The translations under genes were made by a program, and so were the position numbers. From Cephaloticoccus sp. (GTDB lineage: Bacteria; Verrucomicrobiota; Verrucomicrobiia; Opitutales; Opitutaceae): DNA of 64,000 bases. The DNA lies in assembly GCA_030833445.1 (NCBI GenBank), contig JAURHD010000013.1, positions 1 through 64,000 of the forward strand, in the 5' to 3' direction. The notes under the pieces were generated by a model. That model saw nothing but the letters and a program-made list of their open reading frames with translations. It made no database searches and was not told where the DNA came from. Below, in pieces: positions 23,096 to 40,687 of this stretch (positions are counted from its first letter, which is position 1; the number at the start of each line of letters is the position of its first letter).

Positions 23096-23653
23096 TCAGG
23101 CGAACTCTCCGTCAATCAGTTCGCAGAAATGGTGAATCAGGAACAGGTGTGCTTCCTGACAAGCGGCGCCGCTTTCACTGGGCATGATGAGGTCGCAGGT
23201 GGCGAGACCGGCCGCCTTGCCACCGCCGCGGCCGAGAAAGGCTACGCTGCTGAGCCCGAGGGACTTGGCCTCGTGGAGGGCCGCTATGATGTTGGCGGAA
23301 TTGCCACTGGAAGTCAGGACGACCACGAGATCACCGGGATGGGCGAGACCCGCAATTTGCCGGGCAAAGACCTGGTCGTAGCCGTAGTCGTTGCCAATAC
23401 AGGTTACGAGGGAACCGTCGGCCGAGAGGGAGATGGCCGGGAGGGAGGCGCGATTCTTTTGATAGCGGCCGACCAGTTCGGTGGAAAAGTGCGCGGCCTC
23501 GGCTGCGCTACCCCCGTTGCCGCAGATCAGCAGCTTCTTATCATGCCGAAGGGTGTTGAGCATCAGGGCGGCGGCTTCATCGATGGCCGGACGGATGGAT
23601 GACAGGGCTTGCAGGGTGCGAACGGATTCGGCGAGCGACGCTTCAAAAGTCAT
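23096..23653 (-). CDS. gmhA: Phosphoheptose isomerase (SIS domain)
   Basis: A 185-residue SIS-domain protein. It would convert sedoheptulose 7-phosphate to D-glycero-D-manno-heptose 7-phosphate for the LPS core. Seen: LLICGNGGSAAEAAHFSTELVGRY, IGNDYGYDQVFARQI, VLTSSGNSANIIAAL and the C-terminal catalytic-type segment QEAHLFLIHHFCELID. DiaA-like SIS proteins are similar, but the glutamate/histidine set favours GmhA. The ATG at 23653 is supported by homology. The gene is divergent from recF across a 198-nt region full of heptamer repeats. Confidence 0.88.
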   Translation of the reverse strand: MTFEASLAESVRTLQALSSIRPAIDEAAALMLNTLRHDKKLLICGNGGSAAEAAHFSTELVGRYQKNRASLPAISLSADGSLVTCIGNDYGYDQVFARQIAGLAHPGDLVVVLTSSGNSANIIAALHEAKSLGLSSVAFLGRGGGKAAGLATCDLIMPSESGAACQEAHLFLIHHFCELIDGEFA

Positions 23654-23661
23654 GTCGGGAT

Positions 23662-23845
23662 AGTAGCTAACAGTGGGTAGTGGGTAGCGAGTAGAAAATC
23701 TGCGCTGAGGCGGGTCGTCAGGGCCAAACTTGCTCGCTACCCACTGCCTAATACTCACCCCTGTGGGACCGCGAGGAACGACCATTTTGCAGTGGCGCGC
23801 CCAGCATTTTCTACTCGCTACGGACTACTGGCTACCCGCTACTTT
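23662..23845. repeat. Heptamer repeat cluster with 16-bp inverted repeat
   Basis: Three tracts in the gmhA-recF divergent region read in 7-nt register. At 23662-23696: AGTAGCT, AACAGTG, GGTAGTG, GGTAGCG, AGTAGAA. Around 23733-23758: CGCTACC, CACTGCC, TAATACT. At about 23809-23843: TTCTACT, CGCTACG, GACTACT, GGCTACC, CGCTACT. The first and third form a perfect inverted repeat, GTAGCGAGTAGAAAAT (23684-23699) against 23806-23821. The same heptad style recurs at 38653-38687 and 40660-40687. Confidence 0.8.
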
Positions 23846-23851
23846 CCAGCC

Positions 23852-24955
23852 ATGCTTCTGCGCCAGCTCACCCTCCAGAATTTTCGCAACATCCCATGGG
23901 CGAAGCTGGCGCTGCAGGGGCGGCAGACCTTTTTGTTGGGTGCCAACGGCCAGGGAAAAACCAATTTGCTGGAAGCGGCGGGGTTTATCACCGCGTTGCG
24001 TTCGTTTCGCACGACGGATGCGAAACTGCTGATTGCCCGGGAAAAACGGGAGGCGGGACTGGTCTGCGTGGTGGATCACGAACAACGGGGCGAAACCGAG
24101 CTGACGATAAAACTCAAACCCGAGGGTCGCGAACTATGGTGCGACCGCGAGCGGGTCACCAAACTGGCGGATCATCTGGGGCGGTTTCCCACGGTGGTAT
24201 TTTCATCGCAGGACATGTTGTTGGTGCGCGGAGCCCCGGCGGCCCGGCGGCGGTGGTTGGACCTGACCCTGTCGGCCATGGATGCTGACTATCTGCGCAC
24301 GTTGCAGACTTACCACCGAGCCTTGGCCGGCCGCAACAGCCTGTTGAAACGCGGATCAACGGATGCGGAACTCAACGCCTTCGAACAACAGTTGGCCCCG
24401 GCGGCGGCGGATCTGGTGGTGCAACGGCGGGAGGGCATCCGTGAACTTGGGGCGCGGCTTAGTGGATATTATGCGCAACTGACCCCGGATGCCGAACCGG
24501 CAGGATTGCGTTATACGCCCAGTTTTGACGGGACCTCGACGTCCACATGGTTGGAACGTTGGATGCAGGGACGAGGCCGGGACAAGCAGTTGCGCGCGAC
24601 CATGAGTGGACCGCACCGCGATGATTTCGAATTCATGGTCCGTCAATTACCCGCGGCGGATTTCGCATCGGAAGGGCAGCAGCGTTCGTTGGTGCTCGCC
24701 CTGCGACTGGGGCAGGCGGCGTGGTTTCAGGCGCGTTCCGGAGTGAGACCCTTGCTGCTGGCTGATGATGTGCTGGGCGAACTCGATCCGGTGCGCCGCA
24801 GTCGGTTCTGGGCGGCCGTGGATCCTGCTTCGCAGATCATTGCCACGGGCACGACGGTGCCGGAGGCGGATCTGGGTGAGTGGCAGATTTTTTCGGTCGT
24901 CGCCGGTGAGTTTACCGGGAACAGTGGGCCGATGGAGACACCTGGCGATGCTTGA
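23852..24955 (+). CDS. recF: DNA replication and repair protein RecF
   Basis: A 367-residue SMC-like ATPase that loads RecA at single-strand gaps with RecO and RecR; a recO gene lies in this window. Seen: [18 protein letters not shown], Walker A GANGQGKT (30-37), [45 protein letters not shown], the ABC-type signature [16 protein letters not shown] and Walker [15 protein letters not shown]. The ATG at 23852 matches the family N-terminus. It overlaps the next gene by 8 nt, suggesting coupled translation. It is not next to dnaA/dnaN here. Confidence 0.95.
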
Positions 24956-38169: not shown

Positions 38170-38653
38170 ATGAGCCCAATTTCCGAGCGTAGTGCCGCAA
38201 GGCCCGTTGGTAGGCCGTCAGACCGGGATCGTCTGTCGTGTCGCAGAGCACCTCGAGGGTGAGTTTCAAGGCCTCCGTGGGTTGCCCGAGGTCATGTAGA
38301 GTCAGCGCGAGGAAGACGTCGAACTCCCGGTTGTCGGGAAACTGGGCCTGACCAGAACGCAGCACTTCGGCGGAGCGTTCAAACTGGCCAAGATTGCGCA
38401 AAGTGGAGCCCAAGCCGATCAAGGCACCGGCGAGTTCGTTCTCCGGCAGGCCGAGCGCAACCGCCTTTTCGTAAAAGGGCAGCGCCTCCGCTTCCCGTCC
38501 GAGCACATCGCAGGTCCACGCGAGCTGATAGTTGATCTCGGCGACATTGGGGTAACGCGCATCGAGATCCTTGAGTTGACCGAGCACGTGTTCCACCTGG
38601 CCGCCATGGCGTGCACCGGTGATGGCGTCGAGTTCTTCGCGCCAAGCGCTCAT
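38168..38653 (-). CDS. Tetratricopeptide-repeat protein
   Basis: A 161-residue, all-helical soluble protein with about three to four TPR units (PNVAEINYQLAWTCDVLGREAEALPFYEKAVALGL, NELAGALIGLGSTLRNLGQFERSAEVLRSGQAQFP, REFDVFLALTLHDLGQPTEALKLTLEVL). TPRs bind proteins; the partner is unknown. The protein pattern resembles small TPR proteins of about 130-160 residues found in many bacteria. Heptamer repeats begin at its start codon. Confidence 0.85.
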   Translation of the reverse strand: MSAWREELDAITGARHGGQVEHVLGQLKDLDARYPNVAEINYQLAWTCDVLGREAEALPFYEKAVALGLPENELAGALIGLGSTLRNLGQFERSAEVLRSGQAQFPDNREFDVFLALTLHDLGQPTEALKLTLEVLCDTTDDPGLTAYQRALRHYARKLGS

Positions 38654-38687
38654 AGCGGTAAGCGATAAGCGATAAGCTGTAAGACGA
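38653..38687. repeat. Heptamer repeat tract upstream of the TPR gene
   Basis: Five 7-nt units in perfect register: TAGCGGT, AAGCGAT, AAGCGAT, AAGCTGT, AAGACGA. The first base overlaps the ATG of the TPR gene. The tract occupies most of the 52-nt spacer to thrS. Same style as the tracts at 23662-23845 and 40660-40687. Confidence 0.8.
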
Positions 38688-40659: not shown

Positions 40660-40687
40660 TGGCTGTAAGCAGTAGGCTTTAAGCTTT
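40660..40687. repeat. Heptamer repeat tract between cysS and thrS
   Basis: Four 7-nt units: TGGCTGT, AAGCAGT, AGGCTTT, AAGCTTT. The tract overlaps the cysS stop codon (40679-40681) and lies just upstream of thrS. Related in pattern to the two other heptamer tracts. Confidence 0.7.

Follow-up and report, generated by a model that had tools for sequence, protein, structure and literature searches.

Heptamer arrays in intergenic gaps of Opitutaceae as arms of small palindromic elements, probably dispersed like REPs or MITEs

Why should the gap between two divergent genes be packed with 7-nt units in strict register? The question is raised by the gmhA-recF gap in a 64,000-nt stretch of DNA (the window, G000:C4), part of an Opitutaceae (Verrucomicrobiota) MAG whose recF relatives carry the name Opitutaceae. 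An initial annotation of the window reported degenerate heptamer runs with a TAR core in this gap and at 38653-38687 and 40660-40687, all intergenic and at start codons. TAR units were indeed found at all three places. Between gmhA and recF, TAG units lie at 23664, 23678, 23685 and 23692 on the plus strand, with a degenerate unit at 23671, and at 23841, 23834, 23827, 23820 and 23813 on the minus strand; the other two places hold three to four TAR units each, in register. The strictness of the register is borne out by the pattern TARN4TARN4TAR, which forms 4 clusters in the window and 0 at other spacings among 4-12. The placement between genes, at start codons, is likewise supported, and Pfam backs the gene calls themselves: a SIS domain for the gmhA-like gene, RecF, TPR and, for thrS, a class II synthetase with HGTP_anticodon and tRNA_SAD, with a cysS-type gene upstream of it (Table 1).

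Table 1. Genes and repeat features of the window discussed in the text
Feature	Coordinates	Strand	Details
gmhA-like SIS-domain gene	23096..23653	-	Divergent from recF; Pfam SIS_2 3.3e-25
Element 1	23661..23759	+	Arm (TAGNNNN)4 + TAGAAAAT, loop, opposite arm TTGCTCGCTACCCACTGCC
16-bp inverted repeat, left half	23684..23699	+	GTAGCGAGTAGAAAAT; end of element 1 arm
Element 2	23760..23845	-	Opposite polarity; decayed left arm ending CATTTTGC, loop, right arm ATTTTCTACTCGCTAC(NNNCTAC)3 beside recF start
16-bp inverted repeat, right half	23806..23821	-	Complement of GTAGCGAGTAGAAAAT; end of element 2 arm
recF	23852..24955	+	Pfam SMC_N; orthologues in Opitutaceae
Single TAAGCNN-family arm	38654..38687	+	GCGGTAAGCGATAAGCGATAAGCTGTAAG; TAR strand antisense to TPR gene, directly 5' of its start codon
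Short TAAGCNN-type arm	40660..40687	+	GGCTGTAAGCAGTAGGCTTTAAGC; between cysS and thrS, 5' of thrS, overlaps cysS stop region

The three loci had been taken for one kind of repeat; this did not survive, and we distinguish two sequence families, TAGYGRG between gmhA and recF, and TAAGCNN at the TPR gene and thrS, whose arrays are single arms. For the arm at the TPR gene no partner arm was seen, and it does not fold above shuffles. Elsewhere in the MAG the TAAGCNN family has two-armed examples (C2:47175-47260 and C66:111021), and a third type, TARCCAA, occurs at a few sites (C7:32259, C10:242, C10:2615).

The perfect 16-bp inverted repeat described in the gmhA-recF gap is present, and is the longest inverted repeat there, but it is not one unit: it joins the TAGAAAAT ends of two adjacent elements. 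Element 1 folds well below shuffles (z −5.7), and its loop and arms are orthologous to the single element of a congener (L137). Element 2 alone folds no better than shuffles; its orientation is matched at six other recF loci (L136, L139, L181, L194, L122, L123), and the same reverse type is decayed in L133/L120. The orientation of type one, (TAGNNNN)n TAGCGAGTAGAAA - loop - ATGCTCGCTAC(NNNNTA)n, is found in L137, L182, L195 and L207. Where the window holds two elements in tandem, about 10 relatives hold one, in either orientation. The state of the element at recF varies from locus to locus: either orientation, a doubled copy, a decayed one or none. The recF gap is without a heptamer element in L135, L197, L205 and L124; these four gaps carry a short palindrome near GCGGGCTTGCCCGCGA(TAGAAAAT), like REP hairpins of other bacteria.

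A genome-wide test for periodicity at lag 7, proposed with the initial annotation, gave a divided answer. Three TAR at exact 7-nt spacing gave 54 matches in 37 clusters across the source genome against 12 matches at spacing 8, but the bulk autocorrelation of intergenic DNA at lag 7 was not raised (z 0.7; 564 segments, 43% of genome); the arrays are sparse. Spacing served as the control because a reversed control is unclean for TARNNNN, which then reads RATNNNN, a pattern whose base rate in coding DNA is different. Within a 1.25 Mb sample, partly picked for holding matches, spacing 7 gave 19 clusters and the other spacings a mean of 6.6; an unselected 400 kb had 1 cluster at spacing 7, no excess. 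Lags 3, 9, 12 and 15 were raised in the 564 intergenic segments, probably from missed coding sequence. These source-genome statistics are based on stretches and on pattern searches. The arrays exist, though thinly and unevenly spread over this genome. Many of its TAR arrays are on C33 and on the window contig, and on C11, C44 and C1 (400 kb) none rise above chance; the contrast in spread was drawn between C11 and C44 on the one hand and C33, C4, C2 and C71 on the other.

Related genomes supply the anatomy of the complete element. About four TAGYGRG units ending in TAGAAA are followed by a loop and then by about four reversed units that end in GCAT on the inside. Both arms point inwards and finish differently on the inside, one with TAGAAA and the other with GCAT: in 19 of 23 elements whose two arms were anchored at their inner ends, one of those ends is TAG[AG] and its counterpart is CA (binomial p 0.003). 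Over 184 units the unit reads T-A-G-(C 130, T 47)-G-(A 130, G 47)-G. Arms are mostly 4 units long, or 4 plus TAGAAA; elements measure about 60-200 bp and loops about 10-120 nt. Single-arm arrays also occur, as does a run of nine units (L150). Slippage variation had been proposed as something to check; the copy number per arm is mostly fixed near four, which does not resemble slippage-driven change.

Complete elements in the closed genome G028 fold far below shuffles (z about −3 to −8), as strong folding is expected of any palindrome. Such folds could mean that the stem-loop itself is selected as an RNA structure, either a bidirectional intrinsic terminator or an mRNA stabiliser, and the outer edges AAAGTAG...CTACTTT, which give short T runs on both strands, would suit this, as would clear terminator-like hairpins with T runs in some orthologous gaps (L212, L224, L236). 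We nonetheless hold this explanation to be very improbable: facing arms show no co-variation at the variable positions (0.685 matched vs 0.707 with shuffled partners, 23 elements; a first, outer-anchored version of this test was discarded, another repeat being mixed in), a promoter and terminator scan found nothing convincing and no terminator-like site inside the gmhA-recF gap, single arms exist, and no Rfam family reaches threshold. Two Rfam matches to eukaryotic miRNA hairpins scored far below the gathering score and were taken as chance.

The element is largely a family-level feature. The pattern TAGYGRGTAGYGRGTAG occurs in 86 of 150 Opitutaceae genomes, at 0 to 162 matches each and with a reversed control near zero; elsewhere in the phylum about 8 of 260 genomes have it, at 1-3 matches each. 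Copy number varies sharply within genera, from 0 (G091, G155) to 121 (G167) in one and from 0 (G086) to 52 (G028) in another. Y1 transposases (PF01797) are found in many of the genomes, with one in the source MAG and nine in G028. Three genomes (G025, 97% complete; G003; G047) have arrays and no Y1 transposase match, so mobilisation by a RAYT may not be required everywhere; a dependence of the arrays on RAYTs was considered and left unsupported by these array-bearing genomes.

Position relative to genes was best seen in G028, where about 22 sites account for 70 two-unit matches. Of 21 loci that were classified, 19 separate co-directional genes; the element there takes up the gap, leaving mostly 4-30 nt to either gene and usually 6-14 nt ahead of the start codon; gap-pgk and pgk-tpiA are examples. 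Single arms that can be placed between co-directional genes adjoin the start codon (four in G028, namely L147, L151, L156 and L273, and in the window those at the TPR gene and at thrS), in a sample that is small and judged by eye.

This tight spacing to start codons invites a functional explanation, by which the start-side array, YTANNNN in the mRNA, would be a leader or intercistronic element bound by ribosomal protein S1 or a similar regulator of translation, a role already suggested for TAACTGA repeats, the palindrome being secondary. The start-proximal position of those same few single arms is consistent with this, as are the retention of the arm beside recF as CTAC(NNNCTAC) in several genera and the position of TAACTGA repeats mostly just 5' of start codons (PMC4679880). 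Against it, orthologous genes in congeners are wholly without an array, the downstream genes (gap, pgk, recF, thrS) have no evident common function, and TARCCAA-type arrays are oriented opposite to starts (C7:32259, C10:2615). On balance we think regulatory binding unlikely to account for the arrays.

Using the flanks of G028 elements, we located the orthologous gaps in two congeners, G086 and G105. Several are tight and empty: L144 in G105, L149 and L152 in both congeners, and L155 and L271 in G086. Others are filled differently. G086 has an AAG-N4 heptamer palindrome in the L145 gap and CACGAANNN nonamers in the L146, L148 and L157 gaps; G105 has CTAAGTT/TGAATGN heptamers in the L154 gap and NNTTCGT heptamers in the L155 gap. 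Among these orthologous gaps, chosen for holding TAGYGRG elements in G028, periodicity in G105 reaches z 7.3 at lag 7 (partly its own TAG elements), and in G086 z 5.3 at lag 9 and z 3.0 at lag 7. Among loci noted in passing, L283, L281, L289 and L282 are non-TAG heptamer palindromes (AAG-N4, CTAAGTT/TGAATGN, NNTTCGT, TATCAAG/ATTCAAG) where a congener has TAG elements, and L286, L304 and L298 of G086, again in gaps orthologous to G028 elements, have 9-nt periodic arms, CACGAANNN ... NNNTTCGTG.

The neighbourhood of pgk is equally varied across Opitutaceae. CACGGA / ACACAGAG types related to these 9-nt palindromes occupy pgk gaps at L214, L217, L219, L222 and L225. The three terminator-like hairpins mentioned above lie in the gap-pgk gap directly before the pgk start codon, a place where other species have heptamer elements.

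Could all this be neutral sequence, polymerase slippage expanding the heptamers and template switching making the palindromes, in gaps that merely tolerate them? The other 7-, 9- and 6-periodic sequences in congener gaps would be in keeping with that, as would unit variation that is mainly by transitions (C/T at position 4, A/G at position 6) and the rank of heptanucleotides as the most abundant long simple repeats of many bacteria (Mrazek 2007, as quoted in PMC4679880). The single arms and the nine-unit run at L150 could be explained by slippage. However, arms mostly fixed at four units, a conserved polarity and the recurrence of the TAGYGRG unit at non-orthologous sites over the family argue for the copying of a defined element, and a purely neutral origin seems to us rather improbable.

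We therefore favour, at a probability of roughly 55%, the reading that the heptamer runs are arms of small intergenic palindromic elements of Opitutaceae that disperse in the manner of REPs or MITEs and then decay. The anatomy, the dispersal across the family, the tight fit between genes, copy numbers that differ between species and orthologous gaps that are empty or differently filled are established; dispersed intergenic palindromes with fast turnover are the most likely description of them. As we picture the process, elements would be copied as non-autonomous, REP- or MITE-like units into short intergenic gaps and would then decay in place. Where transcribed, a complete element would form an intercistronic stem-loop, and the start-side arm may be kept, lying as it does in the translation initiation region. 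Gaps without an element could be losses, and the scarcity of elements in the source MAG, with their absence from large stretches, counts against dispersal.

More tentatively, the intergenic gaps of Opitutaceae may be slots that are repeatedly refilled by unrelated short-period palindromes (7-nt with various cores, 9-nt CACGAANNN and others), by a process that makes or selects periodic inverted arrays regardless of sequence. This is doubtful as yet, and the pattern of gap refilling is the part most worth following.

How do these elements relate to known repeats? Cyanobacterial short tandemly repeated repetitive (STRR) heptamers are intergenic heptanucleotide repeats, and it was to these that the arrays were first likened. 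The likeness stands in principle, for heptamer repeats of other phyla generally, but the arrays are not a loose set of heptamers, being arms of defined palindromic elements; they differ from STRRs in sequence, phylum and palindromic, polar organisation. Among the cyanobacteria, Calothrix heptamers are cited in PMC4692102.

Closer in architecture are the degenerate GGGAATC or (GGGANTN)n heptamers of Xanthomonas and the GGGGA(C/T)T heptamers of Nostoc (Rehm et al. 2015, PMC4692102). Those of Xanthomonas, the nearest precedent, most commonly have four units and form 70-75 convergent inverted pairs per genome near the 5' neighbouring ORF; they lie antisense just 5' of starts and sense just after stops, and the long repeats are on different genes in sister species (PMC4692102). 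The Opitutaceae arrays share with them the degenerate units, the strict 7-nt register, the prevalence of four units and the convergent intergenic pairs near the 5' neighbouring ORF, as well as the orientation towards starts and stops and the change of genes between sister species. They differ from the Xanthomonas and Nostoc repeats in their unit (TAGYGRG or TAAGCNN), in lacking G-quadruplex potential (of 46 arms, none contains four GGG runs), in their polar elements with inner ends TAGAAA and GCAT, and in their hosts, Opitutaceae as against Gammaproteobacteria and Cyanobacteria. We do not file them under the GGGAATC family itself; the architecture alone is common.

The TAACTGA direct repeats are a second point of comparison: 2-6 near-identical copies, in sense orientation, a few nt from start codons, with downstream genes of no functional class and one indirect repeat in BOGUAY (MacGregor 2015, PMC4679880). 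Heptamers of Opitutaceae likewise have TAA in 7-nt register, in 2-6 copies, near starts and with no functional class downstream; unlike the TAACTGA repeats, their units are TAGYGRG or TAAGCNN, degenerate, mostly paired and antisense to the start-side gene. A third comparison comes from within the family: GTAG-tagged REP palindromes are reported to be plentiful in Opitutus terrae (Di Nocera et al. 2013, PMC3733652). A REP is a short-looped hairpin of 20-40 bp that has a single, unpaired GTAG at its end (PMC3733652). Our elements are also dispersed extragenic palindromes with pairs in opposite orientation and with GTAG present, but they carry GTAG every 7 nt within the stem, their overall size and loops are larger as given above, and no RAYT dependence was seen.

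The initial claim that such repeats are undescribed in this phylum is right in part: we found no description of heptamer arrays in Verrucomicrobiota in the open-access literature, but the GTAG REPs of O. terrae and the Xanthomonas architecture were known. As far as the literature shows, the Opitutaceae arrays are an undescribed relative of the repeat pairs known from Xanthomonas, Nostoc and Beggiatoa, and not a system of a new kind. Xanthomonas, cyanobacteria and Beggiatoaceae each have their own reports of heptamer repeats, with no explanation common to all; the presence of this architecture, lacking G-quadruplex potential, in one more well-sampled phylum makes an explanation based on G-quadruplexes unlikely as a general one. 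Copy number runs from 0 to more than 100 among sister genomes, which allows the gain and loss of arrays, and any effect on the expression of the genes they touch, to be addressed directly.

At the L152 locus of G028 (C1:2616800) the opening TAG of the array may terminate the upstream gene, for which the congeners have a TGA of their own; the element may here have replaced the stop codon of that gene. TAR at 7-nt steps may provide stop codons in all three frames, with which the arithmetic fits.
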